Below are positions 3,487 to 32,000 of a stretch of DNA of 64,000 bases, one piece after another. The translations under genes and the position numbers were made by a program. Positions within the stretch are counted from its first letter, which is position 1. Every line of letters begins with the position of its first letter. This DNA comes from an uncultured Maribacter sp. (GTDB taxonomy: Bacteria; Bacteroidota; Bacteroidia; Flavobacteriales; Flavobacteriaceae). The DNA is taken from assembly GCA_947493885.1 (NCBI GenBank), contig CANLTE010000002.1, positions 62,001 through 126,000 on the forward strand. The letters run 5' to 3'. The notes under the pieces are model-generated. The model was not told the DNA's origin and ran no database searches. It was given only the letters and a program-made list of their open reading frames with translations.

Positions 3487-3927
3487 ATGACAAAGAAAAC
3501 GCGTAACATTATTTATTTGTTAGTATTTGTTCTTGTGTTATTAGTATACGGGTTATATAATTTTACTAAAACTAAGGATATTGATACGTTGATTGCCGAG
3601 CCCATGCTTGAACTAACTGCGGAGGATTTAATCTCGTATTTAGAATTGCATAAAAACACAAATGATAAACAGTATTTAGAAAAGGTAATTGCAATAAAAG
3701 GTGTTGTTAAAGAAATTAATAACTTAAATGAAAGACATACCATATTGTTAAAGGGAGGTAAGGATGATGCCACCCTAATTATATGTGATATGAATCCTAG
3801 CCAGAGTATTGAATTTAAAAAATTAAAACCTGGAGATACTGTAAATGTAAAAGGTATTTATAAAGGTTTTTTAAAAGATGTTGTTCTTTTAAACTGTGTA
3901 ATAGCCAACAAAAAAACCAATGATTAA
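3487..3927 (+). CDS. Membrane-anchored OB-fold protein (tRNA_anti-like), copy 2
   Basis: A 146-residue paralogue of the gene at 1870. It has an N-terminal membrane anchor (IIYLLVFVLVLLVYGLY) followed by an OB-type domain with VIAIKGVVKEINNL and KPGDTVNVKGIYKGFLKDVVLLNCVI. It opens the second YceI/OB/DUF5777 module and overlaps the following YceI gene by 8 bases. Module order differs from the first: OB-YceI-barrel here, YceI-OB-barrel before. Function is unknown. Confidence 0.65.
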   Translation: MTKKTRNIIYLLVFVLVLLVYGLYNFTKTKDIDTLIAEPMLELTAEDLISYLELHKNTNDKQYLEKVIAIKGVVKEINNLNERHTILLKGGKDDATLIICDMNPSQSIEFKKLKPGDTVNVKGIYKGFLKDVVLLNCVIANKKTND

Positions 3928-4465
3928 ACCAGTAATAGCTATGTTGTTTTTAGTAGCATTGGAATTAACAAGCTACCAAGAAAAAATTATAGCGCGTCAG
4001 GGTAACGTTTCTTTTTTTTCATATACCTCTGTCGAAAACATAAAAGCAGAAAACAATCAGGTACTTAGTATCATTGATTTAGAAAATTCTAAAATTGCTG
4101 TTAGTATGCTAATGAATGCTTTTGTTTTTGAAAAAGCATTAATGCGAGAGCATTTTAATGAAAGTTATATTGAGTCTGATATTTACCCTAAGGCAACTTT
4201 TGAAGGAGAAATAATAGATTTTAACCCCTTACAAGAAGGTTCTCAAACCAAAATGGTAAAAGGGGTGTTTACCATGCGCGGAATTTCCAAAGAATTAGAA
4301 ATTAAAACCAAAATTGAAAAACTCAATGATAAATATATACTTTCAGGAGTGTTTGAAGCGGTGGTTAACGATTACGATATAAAAATACCACCACTATTGG
4401 CTGGTAATATTGCAAAGACAATTTTGGTAAATTTTAGATTTGAATACGATCCTTATGAAAACTAA
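3920..4465 (+). CDS. YceI-family periplasmic protein (copy 2)
   Basis: A 181-residue YceI-type protein. It shares the diagnostic stretch MREHFNESYIESDIYPKATFEGE and the end NIAKTILVNFRFEY with copy 1, confirming tandem duplication. The N-terminal signal is short and ends near SYQEK. It overlaps the OB-fold gene upstream and the barrel gene downstream, so the module is tightly coupled in translation. Lipid binding or lipid transport in the periplasm is the family expectation. Confidence 0.8.
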   Translation: MIKPVIAMLFLVALELTSYQEKIIARQGNVSFFSYTSVENIKAENNQVLSIIDLENSKIAVSMLMNAFVFEKALMREHFNESYIESDIYPKATFEGEIIDFNPLQEGSQTKMVKGVFTMRGISKELEIKTKIEKLNDKYILSGVFEAVVNDYDIKIPPLLAGNIAKTILVNFRFEYDPYEN

Positions 4466-6163: not shown

Positions 6164-6254
6164 GAGTTTAACAATTTAGTACTTCTAAGATAGGTAATAA
6201 TTTATAGCTGTTTGTTTGAACTTTTTCGCAGATGAAAAGTTATAAAACATCCAT

Positions 6255-6333
6255 AAAAAAGCCCCGAATTGGAAGTCGAGGCGGCTTAAATGTTTTCACA
6301 ACGGAATAATCCTTATTGTGAATTGCTTTCAGT
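6255..6333 (-). ncRNA. tracrRNA of the type II-C CRISPR system
   Basis: Read on the minus strand, the RNA begins with an anti-repeat (6333-6315) matching 18 of 19 bases of the complement of the array repeat 5' end. Next comes the nexus-like AAGGATTATTCCGTTGTG. Then there is a GC-rich hairpin (GCCTCGA...TTCGGGGC, 6282-6261) and a run of six T (6260-6255), a classic intrinsic terminator. The predicted length is about 79 bases. A promoter fits exactly upstream (see 6338-6368), placing the 5' end at the anti-repeat. Its place next to cas9 and the strong anti-repeat make the assignment firm; the exact ends are inferred. Confidence 0.93.
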
Positions 6334-6337
6334 ACTG

Positions 6338-6368
6338 TAAATGTATAAAAATTTAAGTACTAAACAAA
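6338..6368 (-). promoter_or_regulatory. tracrRNA promoter (Bacteroidota type)
   Basis: On the minus strand there is TTTG at 6368-6365, a 19-base spacer, and TACATTTA at 6345-6338. This matches the Bacteroidota -33/-7 consensus TTTG-N19-TAnnTTTG except for the last base. Transcription would start at about 6331-6334, exactly at the anti-repeat. Confidence 0.7.
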
Positions 6369-6435
6369 TACGCTTTTCCGTAATTGTAATTAAGATTTTT
6401 ACTACTATTTTTATGAAAATAATTTCATTTAAAAA

Positions 6436-6459
6436 GAGAGAGCCTAAAAAGGCTCTCTC
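6436..6459 (-). terminator. Intrinsic terminator of the small RNA
   Basis: 9-bp perfect stem GAGAGAGCC/GGCTCTCTC with a 6-base loop. On the minus strand it is followed by TTTTT (6435-6431). On the plus strand there is no T run, so it terminates minus-strand transcription. Confidence 0.85.
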
Positions 6460-6460
6460 A

Positions 6461-6477
6461 TGAAAACAATTCACAAC
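6461..6477 (-). repeat. Truncated CRISPR repeat inside the small RNA
   Basis: 17 bases matching positions 1-17 of the 46-base repeat in crRNA orientation, with one C-to-T change at position 12. The rest of the repeat is replaced by a terminator hairpin. Confidence 0.85.
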
Positions 6478-6591
6478 TCACTATACGCATTTGTATATTT
6501 TGTGAAAACTGTATTTAGTTGTCACAATCCTGATGAGAGATAATGATGTTAGCAAGAGACACCATTTATTAAGTGTCTATACAGATAAGAG

Positions 6592-6622
6592 CAAAGATAG
6601 AAAAAAGACTATAATATACAAA
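6592..6622 (-). promoter_or_regulatory. Promoter of the crRNA-like small RNA
   Basis: On the minus strand there is TTTG at 6622-6619, exactly 19 bases, then TATCTTTG at 6599-6592. This is a perfect match to TTTG-N19-TAnnTTTG, and the same spacing occurs in the tracrRNA promoter. It is divergent from the cas9 promoter. Confidence 0.75.
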
Positions 6623-6633
6623 TGTTATAGTGA
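6613..6633 (+). promoter_or_regulatory. Near-match to the small-RNA guide segment, between divergent promoters
   Basis: AATATACAAATG + T + TATAGTGA here matches AATATACAAATG + CG + TATAGTGA immediately 5' of the repeat piece in the small RNA (6499-6478, minus). The site includes the -33 box of the small-RNA promoter and ends where the cas9 -33 region is expected. It may be a Cas9/guide binding site for autorepression or, alternatively, a protein operator present twice in inverted orientation. Confidence 0.55.
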
Positions 6634-6655
6634 CAATTTATAAAAATATTTTTAT

Positions 6656-6663
6656 TAACTTTG
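6656..6663 (+). promoter_or_regulatory. cas9 promoter -7 box
   Basis: TAACTTTG is a perfect TAnnTTTG element 18 bases before the cas9 ATG, giving a leader of roughly 12 bases. No clear TTTG is present 19-21 bases upstream, so the promoter may be weak or activator/guide dependent. Confidence 0.55.
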
Positions 6664-6680
6664 AATGTAGCGCAAATAAG

Positions 6681-9600
6681 ATGAAAAAAATATTGGGTTT
6701 AGATCTTGGAACAACTTCCATAGGATGGGCTTTAGTTAATGAAGCCGAGAACCAAAAAGAACAATCAGAAATTATAAAATTAGGCGTTAGGGTAAATCCG
6801 TTAACAACAGATGAGCAAACCGATTTTGAAAAAGGAAGACCACTTTCGGTAAACGCAGATAGAACATTAAAGCGTGGTGCAAGAAGAAATTTGCAACGTT
6901 TTAAACTTCGTAGAAAGCACTTAATTGAAATTCTCAAAAAGCATAACATAGTTAATGGTGAAACACCCTTAACAGAAATTGGTAAGGGAACAACACATCA
7001 AACGTTAAAATTAAGAGCTGTAGCCGCCACTCAAAAAATAGAGTTAGAGGATTTTGCTAAAGTGTTATTAGCAATTAATAAAAAAAGAGGCTATAAGAGT
7101 AGCAGGAAAGCTGTAAATGAGGATGAAGGCGTTGCAATTGATGGAATGGCTATTGCAAAAGAATTGTATGAGAACAATTTAACTCCTGGGCAATACGTAC
7201 TAAGCCTGCTTAAAACTGATAAGAAGTATATTCCTGAATTTTATCGTTCCGATTTACAAAGTGAATTTGATAAGGTATGGAATAAACAGAAAGAATATCA
7301 TCCTGAAGTTTTAACTGATAAATTACACAAAGAATTACATGGGAAAAACAAGACACAAACTTGGGCAATATGTCAAAAACCGTTTGGTATTGTTGGGGTA
7401 AGGTTAGAAGGAAATACCAAAGAACAAAAACTTAAGCGATACGAGCTAAGGGCTTCTGCTTTAAAAGAACAATTGAATTTAGAACATCTTGCTATTGTTT
7501 TACAAGAAATAAATAATGATTTAAACAAATCAAGTGGTTATTTAGGTGCCATAAGTGATAGAAGTAAAGAGCTGTATTTTAATAAAATTACTGTTGGCCA
7601 GTATCTGTATAATCAAATAAAAGTGAGTCCGCATACACCTTTAAAAAATCAAGTGTTTTATCGTCAGGATTATTTAGATGAGTTTGAACAAATATGGCAA
7701 ACGCAAACCCAACACTATTCGGTTTTAACAAATGAGTTAAAAGAAGAAGTTAGAGATGTTGTAATTTTCTATCAACGCAGATTAAAATCTCAGAAACATT
7801 TAATTTCTAATTGCCAGTTTGAAAAGTACCATAAAGCTATTCCTAAATCTTCGCCTTTGTTTCAAGAGTTCAAAATTTGGCAAAACCTGAATAATCTTCA
7901 GTTTAAACAAGTACATGGGGAATTAGATGGTTCATTAAAACAAGGTGTAAAAACAGATTATATTTTAGATGATGACACCAAGCAGCTTTTATTTGAGGAA
8001 TTGAATGTAAGGGGTGATTTAAAAGCTAATGAAGTGCTTAAGTTTTTAGGAAAGAAAACTAAAGATTGGAAATGTAATTTTGAAAAAATAGAGGGTAACA
8101 GAACCAATCAAGTTTTGTATAACATTTATCAAGAAATTGCTGAAGCAGAAGGTTACGGATTTGATTGGTCTAAAAAAACAGCTTTAGAAATAAAAGAAGA
8201 ACTAAAAGCAGTTTTTATAGAAATTGGTGTCAAAGCTGAAATATTAGATTTTGATGCAAACAAAGAGGGTTCAGCATATGATAAGCAGGGTAGTTATCAA
8301 CTATGGCATTTATTATATGCAGCTGAAGATGACCATAAAATAAATGAAGAAGACAAACTTATTTATGGAAACTCAAATGTTGCCTTAAAAAAGAAATTGC
8401 ATGTTAAATATGGTTTTAAACCTGAGTATGCCAAATGGTTAGTAAATATTAGATTACAACAAGACTATGGAAGTTTGTCATCAAGAGCTATTAAGAAAAT
8501 CATGCCTTATTTGCAGAGTGGTAATATGTTTTCGGAAGCCTGTTCATTGGTAGGGTATAATCACTCAAATTCTTTAACCAGAGAAGCATTAGATAATAGA
8601 GATTTAAAAAATAAACTTGAATTATTGCCGAAAAACAGCTTGAGAAATCCGGTGGTTGAAAAGATTCTAAATCAAATGGTGAATTTAATTAATCAAGTTG
8701 TTGATTCCTATGGAAAACCAGATGAAGTAAGAATTGAATTGGCTAGGGAATTGAAAAAATCAGCATCTGAGCGAAAAGATGCCTATTCATTTATTTCAAA
8801 ACGAACCAGAGAAAATGATGAGATTAGAAAACTGATAACTAAGGAATTTGGTATTCCTAACCCTACTAAAAACGACGTGGTAAGGTATCGATTATGGGAA
8901 GAGTTAAAAGATTTAGGATACAAAACTGTGTTTACCAATACTTACATTCCAAAGGAAAAACTTTTTTCAAAAGAAATAGATATTGAACATATTATTCCTA
9001 AAGCAATGTTGTTTGATGATTCGTTTTCAAATAAAACCTTGGCTTATAAAAAAATAAATCTTCAAAAAAGAGATAGGACAGCCTTAGATTTTATTGAAAG
9101 CGATTTTAATAACGATTTAGATAATTATAAAAATAGAGTTGAATCTCTTTACAACAAAGGAAAAGGTTTAATAGGCAAAGGTAAATACAAAAAGTTGTTA
9201 ATGAGTCAACAAAACTTGCCTGATGGCTTTATTGAGCGCGATTTAAGAAATTCTCAATACATAGCAAAAAAAGCAAAATCAATGCTGTTTGAGGTGTTTA
9301 ATGATGTAGTTTCTACTACGGGGAATATAACAGATAAATTGCGCGAGGATTGGGACTTAATTAATGTAATGAAAGAATTAAATCTTCCTAAATACAAAGC
9401 CTTGGGTTTAACCGAAATTCAAGAACGAAAAGGCAATAAAAAAGTTGTGGTTATTAAGGATTGGACAAAACGAAATGACCATCGTCATCATGCTATGGAT
9501 GCTTTAACAGTTGCTTTTACATCGCATAATCACATTCAATATTTAAATAATTTGAATGCCAGAAAAGATAAAAACCATAAAAAACATTCTAACATTCTAG

Positions 9601-10799
9601 CGATAGAAAAGTTGATTGTGAATAAAAATGAAGAAGGCAAGAAAAAATTTATTTCTCCAATGGAAAGTTTTCGTTCGGTAGCAAAAGAGCATATAGAATC
9701 AATTTTAGTATCCTTTAAAGCCAAAAATAAAGTAGTAACCAAAAATGTAAATAAAACAAAACTTAAAGGAAAAGATAATTACAAATCAAAAACACAATTA
9801 ACCCCAAGAGGTCAGCTACATAAGGAAACCGTTTATGGAAAGTCTAAACAACCAATGCATAAGCAAACAAAAATTAACAAGCGTATTTCCATAGAACAAG
9901 TTAATTACATTATAGACCCTCAAATTAAAAGTTGCGTATTAAATCATCTTGATAAATTCAATAATGATGTAACCATTGCATTTGATACAAAAACGCTAAA
10001 GAAAACCCCATTAGTATACAATAATGAGCCGTTGAAAGAAGTATGGTGTTATGAAGATGTTTATACTATAAGAAAAGAAATAGGACCAGATTTAAAAATT
10101 GATAAAGTTATAGATAAAGGAGTTAGGGAAATACTCCAACAGCGATTGGAAGAATTTGGTAATAATACAAAAGAGGCATTCTCAAATTTAGAGAAAAACC
10201 CTATTTGGCTAAATAAGGGAAAGGGTATTTCTATAAAACGAGTCACTATTTCTGGGGTTAATAATGTAGAGGCATTACATGAAAAAAGAGACCATTTAGG
10301 TAATATAATATTAAATGGTAGTGGTAAACCCATTCAAAGCGATTTTGTAAGTACGGGAAATAACCATCATGTTGCAATTTATAAAGACGAAAATGGAAAG
10401 CTGCAAGAAAAAGTTGTATCGTTTTATGAGGCTGTACAACGTGTAAATTCAGGTTTGTCAATAATTGATAAAGATTATAATAACCATTTGGGATGGAAGT
10501 TCATGTTTTCAATGAAACAGAATGAGTTATTTGTGTTTCCTTCGGGAGATTTTAATCCACGGGAAATTGATTTATTAAATAAAAAACACACTGCTATAAT
10601 TAGTAAACATTTGTTTAGAGTTCAGAAGATTGCTACTAAAAATTATATGTTTAGACATCATTTGGAAACAACCGTAGAAACGTTAAAACCTTTAAATGGA
10701 ATAGCATATAAATCTCAATTAGGATTAAATGCTATCTATGGCATAATAAAGGTAAGAACTAATCATTTAGGAGAAATTGTTCAAGTGGGCGAATATTAA
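6681..10799 (+). CDS. cas9: Type II-C CRISPR RNA-guided endonuclease Cas9
   Basis: A 1372-residue Cas9, the large size typical of Bacteroidota II-C enzymes. RuvC-I is LGLDLGTTSIGWA with catalytic Asp8. An arginine-rich bridge helix follows at about residues 60-90 (KRGARRNLQRFKLRRKHL). RuvC-II is IELAREL with Glu686. The HNH nuclease has DIEHIIPK with Asp767 and His770. RuvC-III is HHAMDA with His937 and Asp940. The C-terminal third would hold the wedge and PAM-interacting domain. The ATG at 6681 is chosen because MKKILGLDLG is the usual start; the in-frame GTG at 6630 would overlap the promoter. All nuclease residues are present, so it should cut. cas1 starts 5 bases downstream. Confidence 0.98.
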   Translation: MKKILGLDLGTTSIGWALVNEAENQKEQSEIIKLGVRVNPLTTDEQTDFEKGRPLSVNADRTLKRGARRNLQRFKLRRKHLIEILKKHNIVNGETPLTEIGKGTTHQTLKLRAVAATQKIELEDFAKVLLAINKKRGYKSSRKAVNEDEGVAIDGMAIAKELYENNLTPGQYVLSLLKTDKKYIPEFYRSDLQSEFDKVWNKQKEYHPEVLTDKLHKELHGKNKTQTWAICQKPFGIVGVRLEGNTKEQKLKRYELRASALKEQLNLEHLAIVLQEINNDLNKSSGYLGAISDRSKELYFNKITVGQYLYNQIKVSPHTPLKNQVFYRQDYLDEFEQIWQTQTQHYSVLTNELKEEVRDVVIFYQRRLKSQKHLISNCQFEKYHKAIPKSSPLFQEFKIWQNLNNLQFKQVHGELDGSLKQGVKTDYILDDDTKQLLFEELNVRGDLKANEVLKFLGKKTKDWKCNFEKIEGNRTNQVLYNIYQEIAEAEGYGFDWSKKTALEIKEELKAVFIEIGVKAEILDFDANKEGSAYDKQGSYQLWHLLYAAEDDHKINEEDKLIYGNSNVALKKKLHVKYGFKPEYAKWLVNIRLQQDYGSLSSRAIKKIMPYLQSGNMFSEACSLVGYNHSNSLTREALDNRDLKNKLELLPKNSLRNPVVEKILNQMVNLINQVVDSYGKPDEVRIELARELKKSASERKDAYSFISKRTRENDEIRKLITKEFGIPNPTKNDVVRYRLWEELKDLGYKTVFTNTYIPKEKLFSKEIDIEHIIPKAMLFDDSFSNKTLAYKKINLQKRDRTALDFIESDFNNDLDNYKNRVESLYNKGKGLIGKGKYKKLLMSQQNLPDGFIERDLRNSQYIAKKAKSMLFEVFNDVVSTTGNITDKLREDWDLINVMKELNLPKYKALGLTEIQERKGNKKVVVIKDWTKRNDHRHHAMDALTVAFTSHNHIQYLNNLNARKDKNHKKHSNILAIEKLIVNKNEEGKKKFISPMESFRSVAKEHIESILVSFKAKNKVVTKNVNKTKLKGKDNYKSKTQLTPRGQLHKETVYGKSKQPMHKQTKINKRISIEQVNYIIDPQIKSCVLNHLDKFNNDVTIAFDTKTLKKTPLVYNNEPLKEVWCYEDVYTIRKEIGPDLKIDKVIDKGVREILQQRLEEFGNNTKEAFSNLEKNPIWLNKGKGISIKRVTISGVNNVEALHEKRDHLGNIILNGSGKPIQSDFVSTGNNHHVAIYKDENGKLQEKVVSFYEAVQRVNSGLSIIDKDYNNHLGWKFMFSMKQNELFVFPSGDFNPREIDLLNKKHTAIISKHLFRVQKIATKNYMFRHHLETTVETLKPLNGIAYKSQLGLNAIYGIIKVRTNHLGEIVQVGEY

Positions 10800-10804
10800 A
10801 CGTT

Positions 10805-12069
<1,265 letters not shown>

Positions 12070-12177: not shown

Positions 12178-12982
12178 ACTGTGAATCATCACTAAAAGTA
12201 ATGAACTGAAAGCAATTCACAACTTTTGAATGAATCTCGAAGAGCAGTGGCAAAACTGTGAATCATCACTAAAAGTAATGAACTGAAAGCAATTCACAAC
12301 ACTTAGCTCTGTCATTAAATCTTGATGAGAACTGTGAATCATCACTAAAAGTAATGAACTGAAAGCAATTCACAACTACTGCCCGTGTCGCTGTAACGTT
12401 TAGCGCACTGTGAATCATCACTAAAAGTAATGAACTGAAAGCAATTCACAACATCCTTCTCTAGCTCTTTATCTTTTAAATACTGTGAATCATCACTAAA
12501 AGTAATGAACTGAAAGCAATTCACAACTGTAATTCGTGTACATATTTCAAAGGTATAACTGTGAATCATCACTAAAAGTAATGAACTGAAAGCAATTCAC
12601 AACTAGTCATAATTGCTTTACTTTGTTGTTGATACTGTGAATCATCACTAAAAGTAATGAACTGAAAGCAATTCACAACCGTTTGCTCCATCAATCCATT
12701 CTGTTGAAACTGTGAATCATCACTAAAAGTAATGAACTGAAAGCAATTCACAACTTAATGCCATATGTGGTATGTATACGCTGCACTGTGAATCATCACT
12801 AAAAGTAATGAACTGAAAGCAATTCACAACATAAGTGCTGCAATTAGGGCAGCTTTGCGAACTGTGAATCATCATTAAAAATAATGAACTGAAAGCAATT
12901 CACAACTGGAAAATTTAATCACGAATCACCATTACGACTGTGAATCATCATTAAAAATAATGAACTGAAATCGAAGATTCAC
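12178..12982 (-). CRISPR. Type II-C CRISPR array, 11 repeats and 10 spacers
   Basis: Repeats are 46 bases, starting at 12178, 12255, 12331, 12407, 12482, 12558, 12634, 12709, 12785, 12861 and 12937. Spacers are 29-31 bases (mostly 30). In crRNA orientation (minus strand) the repeat starts GTTGTGAATTGCTTTCAG. The first nine repeats are identical. The tenth has two changes in its middle. The last also has a disrupted GTTGTG end, so the old end is on the right. Each repeat contains a promoter-like pair (GTTG, 19 bases, TACTTTTA) that would transcribe its own spacer, as in other II-C arrays. I saw no spacer matching this window. The array faces opposite to the cas operon. Confidence 0.98.
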
Positions 12983-29066: not shown

Positions 29067-32000
29067 ATGCTTATGAAATTAATTAAGAAAAAACGCCAAT
29101 ATCACATATGGTCATTGCTGCTGCTTTGGCTTGTTGGTACAGCGTTTGTGCAAGCGCAGTCACAAACTGTGACAGGAACCACTTCTGATAGTAACGGGCC
29201 GTTACCAGGAGTAAATGTTGTTGTTAAAGGAACAACAAATGGAACTACTTCCGATTTTGACGGAAATTTTACTATTAATAACGTTCCAGACGGGGCAACT
29301 TTGGTTTTTTCCTATTTAGGGTACAAAACACAAGAAGCACCGGTCTCTGGAGGAACGGTGTCAATAACAATGGAAGAAGATGCCGAATATCTAGATGAGG
29401 TAGTTGTTGTAGGGTATGGTTCTCAAAAGAAAAGTGATTTAACCGGAGCAGTAGGAGTTGTGGACAACAAAGAAATTGAAAAGTATACCTTTAGTGATGC
29501 TTCACAAGCTTTACAAGGTAGAGTTGCAGGTGTTAATGTGCAATCTGCAGGAGGTGCGCCTGGTGCTGGGGCAAACATTACTGTTAGAGGTTTAGGTTCT
29601 TTAACAGATGCTAGCCCTTTATTTGTTATTGATGGTGTTATTACTGGAGGAATGAGCTCTATTAATTCATCAGATATTGAGTCCATTTCAGTTTTAAAAG
29701 ATGCTTCGGCAACTGCTATTTACGGTTCGCGAGCTGCGAATGGTGTAATAATAATAACTAGTAAAAAAGGTGTTAGAGGTAAAGTATCTATAGACTTTGA
29801 TACAAGTATTGGATTTCAAAAATTAATAAAGTCATTAGATTGGGCAAATGCAAGACAGTATGCTGATATTGTTAATCAAGCAAATGATAATGATGGGGTT
29901 ACAAGAGCCCCTGCTAATGATAGCGAATTTAATCCAAACCTAACAAGTAATCTTTATGATGAATCTATTAGAACAGCAACTATTAAAAATACTAATTTCA
30001 GAATTTCTGGAGGAGGAGAAAATACACTTTACAGTTTTTCTGTAGGTCATCAAGAAAATGAAGGTATCGTAAAATATTCAGATTTTACATTATCCACCGC
30101 AAGGTCAAATGTTTCATTTACTAAAGGTAAATTTAAGCTAAACAATACTATAGGTTTAACAAGGTCAGTAAATAATCCTAACCCATATTTTAATAAAGAA
30201 AGAAACTTGCCTCCAACTATAAGCTTAAAAGATGAAAATGGTGATTGGGTACATACAAATGTAGATGCTAGTAGTGCAGGAGCATTTTACGGACAGAGTA
30301 GTAGAATTAATGAATTAGGTTTTGCTGCTTTAGAAGATAGAACTATTACAAGAAACACGGTATTAGGGAATTTAACAGCTTCTTATGAGATACTTAATGG
30401 GTTAACGTATAAAATAAGTTTAGGGGCAGAGTATTATGCTGATAATAATTATAAGTTTACTCCAGATCATCCTGTAATTACTGGAACAGGAGGGAACATT
30501 ATAACTTCGGAATTATCAGAAACTAATACGAATTATTTATCTACACTTGTAGAGCAGACTTTAAATTATAAGAGGTCTTTTGGGAATCATAACATTGATC
30601 TTTTAGGAGGTATTACACAACAGAAGGATAATTTAAGAAGTTTAGGAACTAAGGCTCTTGATTTTCCAAGTAATAATATTCGCATAGCTTCTCAAGCAGA
30701 AACGTTACAAAGTGCTCCATCTAGAGATTTAACTAGCGCGATTCAATCATACTTTGGAAGATTAAATTATAATTACGATGATCGTTATTTATTAACCGCT
30801 ACTTTACGTAGAGATGGGTCTTCTTTGTTTATAGGAGATTTAAGATGGGGAACATTTCCATCGTTTGCCCTTGGGTGGAATATAAGTAATGAGAAATTTC
30901 TTGAAAATTTTGATGCGCTAACAAATATTAAGTTTAGAGCTAGTTATGGTGAAATAGGGTCAAGTAATGTTCCTATTTATGCTGTAGACCCAGAAATTAA
31001 TTTATTTAGTGAATATATTTTAGGTGTAAATCAAGGCAGAGTTACTGGTTACTCTATAACTAAAGGAGTTGATCCAAGTATATTTTGGGAGACCACTAAA
31101 ACAACAGACATCGGTTTAGAGTTTAGTGCATTAAATAATAAATTAAATGTAACTATGGATTATTTTATTAAGAAATCCGAAGATGTATTGGGTCCAGTTC
31201 CTCCTCCTTTTTATTCTGGCTATCAATCAGCTATTCCACAAAATACGGCTAGTGTAGACAATAAAGGTTTTGAATTTTCTGCTAGTTATGCTAATCAAAT
31301 AGGAGATTTATCATATAATGTGTCTGGTAATTTCTCTGTATTAGATAATGAAGTTACTTCATTAGGAGGAGCTACTCCAAGAGCAGCAGGTAGTTTTACT
31401 TCAAATACAACAAATAGTACATTAACTGATGTTGGCCAACCGATAGGGTCTTTTTATGGATATATTGTAGATGGCATTTACCAAACCGATGCTGAAGCTG
31501 CAGCAGCAAATGATGCCACAGGTAACCCAAGAGCTGGAGATTTTAGATTTAAAGATATTGCAGGTCCTGATAATAGTGGTCCTGATGGAATTATTGATGT
31601 AAATGATCAAACATTTTTAGGTAGTCCTATTCCAACATTTGAATATAGTTTAAACTTGTCGGCAGACTATAAGAATTTTGATTTGAGTTTATACTTTAAT
31701 GGAGTTTCTGGAAACTCAATAGTAAACGGAGTTAAGTATAGAGGCTATTTTGATAATGATGGAAATTATTTTGCTGATGCATTAAATGCATGGACACCAT
31801 CTAATACGAATACAAGCGTAGCAAGAAATACACAATCAGATCCAGGAAAGAACAAAAGAATGTCTTCATTTTATGTAGAAGATGGTGCATATTTTAGACT
31901 TAGAAATGCACAAATAGGATATTCATTACCAGATAATGTTTTAGACAAGATTAAATTAAGTAAGGTTAGGCTGTATCTTTCTGCGATAAATTTATTTACA

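Follow-up and report, generated by a model that had tools for sequence, protein, structure and literature searches.

The window, a stretch of 64,000 nucleotides from an uncultured Maribacter sp. (contig CANLTE010000002.1), carries a type II-C CRISPR locus with a tracrRNA on the minus strand, cas9, cas1, cas2 and an array of repeats 46 nt long. Among named cas9 loci, the nearest is that of an uncultured Maribacter isolate (98%). The cas9 gene (6681..10799, plus strand, 1372 aa) was recognised by its HNH_4 and RuvC_III domains and by TIGR01865, and cas1 (10805..11704) and cas2 (11722..12069) lie on the same strand. The array (12178..12970, minus strand) consists of ten full repeats and an eleventh that is truncated (12937-12970), with spacers mostly of 29-30 nt. 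Upstream of cas9, the tracrRNA (6255..6345, minus strand, ends approximate) was delineated by sequence, terminator scan and nexus match, and comprises an anti-repeat (6331-6315), the nexus AAGGATTATTCCGTTGTGAAAAC and a terminator (6282-6261).

The crRNA-like RNA gene and its target

Between tracrRNA and cas9, a separate gene for a crRNA-like RNA had been predicted on the minus strand, and this is supported by similar elements in other Bacteroidota, a leader that covaries among six relatives and targets that change together with the guide. A pattern scan located TTTG-N19-TATCTTTG (6592..6622, minus strand), which we take to be a promoter motif of the Bacteroidota -33/-7 type. The "perfect promoter" of the original prediction is present at 6622-6592, but its pattern occurs no less often than by chance in the window (2 found, 3.15 expected) and is by itself no evidence. 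The leader (6508..6586, minus strand, start predicted) folds into hairpins, in line with the 5' hairpin that had been proposed, and is followed by the guide segment (6478..6507, minus strand), the length of which was assumed from the array spacers of 29-30 nt.

The adjoining repeat piece GTTGTGAATTGTTTTCA (6461..6477, minus strand) is indeed in crRNA orientation and identical in 16/17 positions to the array repeat GTTGTGAATTGCTTTCA. A search of the whole genome with the Y-degenerate 17-mer, allowing at most one mismatch, returned 12 sites, namely the ten array repeats, the tracrRNA anti-repeat and the copy at 6477-6461. The expected pairing with the tracrRNA anti-repeat extends over 17 bp including a G-U pair (dG -21.2 kcal/mol, compared with -9.3 +/- 2.6 for shuffles and -27.9 kcal/mol for the array repeat). 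In place of the remainder of the repeat, terminator scans found an intrinsic terminator (6431..6459, minus strand) with a 10-bp stem at 6459-6436 followed by T5; three terminator-like sites including that of the tracrRNA lie within 6180-6700, where 0.1 are expected. The predicted transcript as a whole folds with z = -5.4, partly because of the terminator. Rfam has no family for the crRNA-like RNA. All matches to the stretch of the window stayed below gathering score, and in seven other loci nothing but two tRNAs exceeded it.

The spacer-like segment turned out to have a target, missed in the original prediction, at 6613..6633 on the plus strand. The guide bases 5' of the repeat piece, in seed position, are AATATACAAATG-CG-TATAGTGA, and the target reads AATATACAAATG-T-TATAGTGA followed by the PAM-like CAATTT (6634-6639, plus strand), so that the 3' 22 nt of the guide pair over 8 nt, a 2:1-nt bulge and 12 nt. 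Throughout the 3.84-Mb genome, ATACAAATG-N1-2-TATAGTGA occurs at two sites only, the guide and the target, and with one interruption allowed the match scores 17, compared with a maximum of 11 in 5000 shuffles. The target overlaps the -33 element of the crRNA-like RNA, the -7 box of which lies 34 nt from the target start. Its PAM-side end is 22 nt upstream of TAACTTTG (6656..6663, plus strand), which by its motif is the putative -7 box of the cas9 promoter.

Recurrence and target geometry in Bacteroidota

Cas9 matches were collected from 30/296 genomes of relatives, 22/397 of the family, 30/395 of the order and 44/395 of the class (overlapping sets), from genus-level genomes (37/148, 4/11 and 1/2) and from 55 loci in genome contigs. 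After loci with identical first 200 nt of cas9 had been merged, 137 distinct loci were obtained among the matches listed, of which at most 30 per search were taken; nine loci with an unparsed cas9 start and L170 were left out. A minus-strand tracrRNA nexus is found upstream of cas9 in 129 of the 137 loci, with a gap of less than 180 nt in 107 and a longer one in 22. Seventeen of these 22 long-gap loci hold a crRNA-like element, 14 of them on the minus strand and three on the plus strand (L134, L162 and L164), and the remainder consist of L021 with a fused guide-tracrRNA and of L054, L061, L071 and L122 without an element. Among the 107 short-gap loci none was accepted. Two candidates were rejected, L050, whose minus-strand score of 10.9 was the best in the short-gap group, and L140, with a plus-strand score of 12.4 and a match of 6 nt. 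L142 was accepted despite a weak repeat score of 9.8, a value also seen in some non-elements, and is supported by the leader model described below.

The fused guide-tracrRNAs are natural single guides, about 340-460 nt upstream of cas9 on the minus strand in L021 and about 300-510 nt upstream in the short-gap locus L093, in both of which a repeat-like arm, a loop, an anti-repeat and a tracrRNA scaffold form a single unit within a second tracrRNA copy; that of L093 lies further upstream than the first and also has a cloverleaf-like leader. Second copies of the tracrRNA nexus upstream of cas9 were seen in L082, L151 and L154 as well. In L073, two near-identical standalone repeat starts lie past the array end, at about 6495 and 6663 nt downstream from where cas9 begins. 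An AT-rich stretch of 11 nt that matches the gap between tracrRNA and cas9 precedes one of them; both are probably array-end remnants.

The repeat pieces of other loci track the anti-repeat of their own locus (e.g., L062, L090 and L098). A hairpin with T-run follows the repeat piece in 16 of 19 elements, counting L184 and L185, which were found later with the leader model. No local terminator hairpin was detected in L108, L134 and L142; the first two show long-range stems with the leader, and L142 shows neither. The terminator scan was also positive at 108 of 380 starts drawn at random from these stretches (terminators included) and is therefore weak as a statistic.

Exact matches to the plus strand, anchored at the repeat piece, measure 7-13 nt in each of the 14 minus-strand elements and sum to 138, compared with 64.4 +/- 4.0 and a maximum of 80 in 3000 shuffles. 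Twelve of the 14 had been picked by anti-repeat pairing before the matches were computed, seven of these having already been inspected by eye, and L157 and L172 were picked by repeat score with the guide match visible in the same output. In the first 12 elements, the mean match peaks at the repeat boundary among 79 anchor positions compared, and a second peak at +9 to +15 is due to the anti-repeat. When guides and regions were swapped between loci, 8 nt were reached in 6 of 132 combinations, two of them from the similar pair L013/L095. Of 251 array spacers from seven element loci, 14 reach 7 nt, five reach 8 nt and none reaches 10 nt; one of the 57 array spacers of L043 equals the 9-nt match of its element. 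On their own, the 7-nt matches of L073 and L142 and the ungapped 8-nt match of L062 are close to chance level and not significant (P 0.066-0.072).

The arrangement of an 8-nt seed, an interruption of 2 nt in the guide and 1 nt in the target, and 12 further matching bases is common to L010, L062 and L108, and L162 and L164 have the same geometry with the target on the other strand. These five loci represent three unlike sequences, with L010 and L062 alike, L162 and L164 alike and L108 distinct. A 10-nt match of L162 and L164 to an adjacent hairpin arm was set aside in favour of the 8 + 12 match at the promoter. In the related L184 and L185, one guide base within the match differs and the target changes in step.

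These comparisons bear on two other readings of the match. The RNA might be a guide of the scaRNA type that silences unrelated chromosomal genes, as in Francisella novicida, with the match beside cas9 being incidental. Its own promoter, degenerate repeat and tracrRNA pairing would suit such a role, and any genome holds many partial matches to short seeds; however, the matches near cas9, taken over all elements, greatly exceed those of shuffles, swapped pairs and array spacers, and the extended match of the window is unique in the genome, which makes this reading very unlikely. Spacer and target could also be the two halves of an inverted repeat in the DNA to which a protein repressor binds, as the copies are inverted and the distance from target to repeat start is 147-216 nt in 16 of 17 elements (69 or 32 nt in L090). 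However, the best anchor lies exactly at the start of the repeat piece, the other copy precedes two purines (RR) and not repeat sequence, and the letters vary between loci, so that we consider an inverted repeat of this kind even more improbable.

Purines were found at +2 and +3 past the target in 14 of 15 cases (14 elements and L021; background 0.296, P 4e-7); L090 has two target sites, both followed by RR, of which the second was used in this count. The later-found L134, L162, L164 and L185 also have RR and L184 does not, which gives an N-R-R flank in 18 of 20 targets, L172 and L184 being the exceptions. For L093, the outcome depends on its register, which is uncertain by a base or two. A PAM consensus deduced from these target flanks would be in keeping at +3 with the NNRAA given for the Chryseobacterium CbCas9 in a review table (PMC12302564). 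Comparison of array spacers from L083, L043, L090 and the window with phages gave three weak matches and no usable protospacer for the PAM, and exact scans of IMG/VR with the window spacers gave no usable protospacer either. In Riemerella phage vB_RanS_CRP19, a mini-CRISPR array was seen that lies under no annotated feature (OR089151.1, about 29150-29548; L178:2343-2741). It has three full host-like type II-C repeats and a degenerate one, with 30-nt spacers of which two are identical, and a terminator-like hairpin adjoins it.

In 14 of 17 elements, the strand of the RNA has a perfect TANNTTTG box at a distance of 21-36 nt from the target start (P about 1e-12, with the seed length of L162 and L164 set by hand), and a random site in the same stretches has a box at 20-40 nt with a probability of 0.09. 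The target thus lies over the -33 region of the promoter of the RNA itself. With distances of 31 nt in L184 and 30 nt in L185, the number rises to 16 of 19, and L093 has its box at 32-35 nt depending on the register. The exceptions are L043 and L090, which have boxes with one mismatch, and L142, which has none; L021 also breaks the rule, with its target end 61 nt upstream of cas9. With respect to the putative -7 box of cas9, the target end lies at -27 to +18 nt in 11 of the 14 elements on the minus strand; of the others, L083 and L098 lack a perfect box, and that of L142 is at a distance of 133 nt. The three loci with co-directional genes have the targeted promoter upstream of cas9. In L134, the T-run closing the RNA is about 20 nt before the cas9 start, which leaves little space for a further promoter.

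It could be argued from this geometry that the guide silences its own promoter only and acts as a self-limited sink for Cas9 and tracrRNA with a small effect on cas9. The tightest spacing is that to the RNA's own -7 box, and the targets of L162 and L164, at the RNA's own promoter, are 344 and 326 nt upstream of the cas9 start. The proximity of the target end to the cas9 -7 box in most minus-strand elements and the position of the T-run in L134 speak against such a limited effect, and we regard it as unlikely, though less so than the other alternatives.

Distribution and leaders of the cassette

Similar cassettes occur across the phylum, also in bacteria that are only distantly related. On a quick Cas9 tree with 127 rows, the 14 minus-strand elements required 13 state changes compared with a mean of 13.5 for shuffled labels, the three plus-strand elements being unlabelled in this comparison. 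Five sister pairs (L010/L011, L013/L012, L073/L066, L172/L036 and L157/L027) differ by a cassette of about 230-275 nt that lies between the tracrRNA promoter and the cas9 start. Conservation in close relatives, proposed in the original prediction as a check, was found only in part: the arrangement recurs in other Bacteroidota, but a sister locus with a 98% identical Cas9 is without the whole cassette, which indicates that the cassette is often gained and lost and is dispensable.

Six leaders (L028, L083, L172, L073, L098 and L157) form a four-way cloverleaf with GUCCAAA or a variant of it in the third loop. They were trimmed by hand to the closing stem of single folds and aligned by sequence with MAFFT, and the structure was predicted on the alignment; 23 of 29 consensus pairs show at least one two-sided change. 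A covariance model built from these six and run on 99 sources recovered all of them together with L142 (E 3e-4); L093 (E 0.13) and L101 (E 1.5) matched weakly. With 150 candidates scored per genome, it matched in six of 15 chosen genomes, each time at the site already known next to cas9. A search of 326 genomes of the order with stricter filters gave three matches, namely L028 and the new L184 and L185. The two new sites adjoin genes above the NCBIfam Cas9 cut-off and are absent from the matches of the survey. Both have a repeat piece, a terminator and a target match of 11-12 nt at their own promoter. The leader of the window does not fit the cloverleaf model.

L162 and L164 contain a tRNA within the leader, between promoter and guide (ARAGORN; Rfam 60.2 and 58.3 bits). 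The two are otherwise alike, and by anticodon they are Phe-GAA in L162 (1219-1291, plus strand) and Ile-TAT in L164 (5955-6029, minus strand). Leaders of this kind, cloverleaf or tRNA, may define or protect the 5' end of the guide.

That the element might be a functionless decayed mini-array or a stray repeat had already been doubted in the original prediction. It is found in a minority of loci and close relatives are without it, as would be expected of a remnant; on the other hand, the guide-target match with PAM-like flank is seen in many lineages, the leader pairs show the two-sided changes given above, and the model search recovered two further complete cassettes. We consider decay barely conceivable, the least probable of the readings weighed here.

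Proposed autoregulation and related systems

Read together from the sequence, the architecture of the RNA, its match to the target, the PAM-like flank, the position, the recurrence and the leader covariation in relatives point to a crRNA-like guide with which tracrRNA-loaded Cas9 would bind the divergent promoter region without cutting and repress both the guide and cas9; we hold this to be highly probable. Transcription of the guide, loading into Cas9, cleavage-free binding and repression are the steps that we infer. The repeat piece would pair with the tracrRNA and bring the guide into Cas9, and the guide segment would then steer Cas9 to its site among the divergent promoters that separate the RNA gene from cas9. 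Since the pairing is short or interrupted (8 nt, bulge and 12 nt here, 7-13 contiguous nt elsewhere), Cas9 should bind and not cut. Bound at the -33 region of the RNA promoter, and in divergent loci mostly at the cas9 promoter as assigned by its motif, it would block transcription. This would give a negative feedback in which free Cas9 shuts the promoter, and array crRNAs drawing Cas9 off reopen it.

In a wider sense, type II-C loci of Bacteroidota might possess a swappable thermostat cassette for Cas9 of about 230-275 nt, composed of the cas9 promoter, the guide and a target within the guide's promoter, which would have been gained and lost repeatedly; its tRNA-shaped or tRNA leader may set the 5' end of the guide and make it a tRNA-guide fusion. 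For this extended proposal, we see about even chances.

Related systems are known from other types. CreR RNAs have limited complementarity to their target and typically form a mini-array with two repeats flanking a spacer. The element differs from this form in having one repeat piece followed by a terminator, with a leader on its 5' side, and in some loci a cloverleaf or tRNA leader. CreR was placed in types I and V-A by a 2025 review (PMC12737573), according to which this crRNA-like RNA, encoded apart from the array, binds both effector and cas promoter and exerts feedback. The window element is likewise a crRNA-like RNA outside the array, with a partial guide match to the putative cas9 promoter beside a PAM-like flank, but it belongs to a type II-C Cas9 with tracrRNA and has its target at the RNA's own promoter.

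In Streptococcus pyogenes (type II-A), tracr-L similarly uses a short match to bring Cas9 to the promoter of its own cas genes (PMC11417352, PMC8730458), and this match is given as 9 bp (PMC8730458). Unlike this single guide, the 19 elements are separate crRNA-like RNAs of type II-C loci that need a tracrRNA, and in the window guide and tracrRNA are separate units, the latter with its own terminator; the fused guide-tracrRNAs of L021 and L093 are nearer to tracr-L. With a crRNA of 11 matching and nine non-matching nt, the cas promoter of S. pyogenes showed low activity (PMC11417352). Whether scaRNA leads to repression or to cleavage is reported to depend on how far its complementarity extends (PMC8730458). 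By analogy, repression without cutting is most likely what the short or bulged guide would cause in the window.

Francisella scaRNA (type II-B) had been named in the original prediction, along with CRISPR-derived regulatory RNAs, as an analogue. It resembles the element as a small RNA with a degenerate repeat, a tracrRNA partner, a promoter motif and a terminator (PMC6199352, PMC9458426), but it acts on virulence genes, whereas the target proposed here is the promoter of cas9 and guide. Autoregulation in the manner of CreR or tracr-L fits better than a control of other genes as by scaRNA. Guzina 2018 predicted scaRNAs in types II-A, II-B and II-C, with targets that were not predictable and a strain table in which Bacteroidota do not appear (PMC6199352). 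A small RNA associated with type II-C that binds Cas9 has also been described in Neisseria meningitidis, but it acts post-transcriptionally on efeO mRNA, and the account available names no cas9-promoter target (PMC13431127). Bacteroidetes II-C tracrRNA has been described in passages that include no such crRNA-like RNA (PMC9067536).

A crRNA-like autoregulatory element of Bacteroidota II-C was not found in the open-licence papers searched, in agreement with the view that the arrangement had not been described there. We group the element with the autoregulatory crRNA-like guides, among which its Bacteroidota II-C form would be new. If the proposal is true, RNA-guided self-control of Cas effectors would extend to type II-C Cas9 in a large phylum, and a natural Cas9 with nuclease domains would serve as repressor via seed-limited or bulged guides. 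A separate dedicated guide with a target rule (own -33 region, RR flank) would be predictable from sequence, and the flanks of the targets offer an indirect PAM readout for uncharacterised Bacteroidota Cas9s. Natural tRNA or tRNA-like leaders on guide RNAs would be a further consequence.

Elsewhere in the window, apart from the CRISPR locus, a 130-nt direct repeat with 70% identity is present at 1500-1629 and 4092-4221, within ORFs 1289-1873 and 3920-4465, and is probably a gene duplication.
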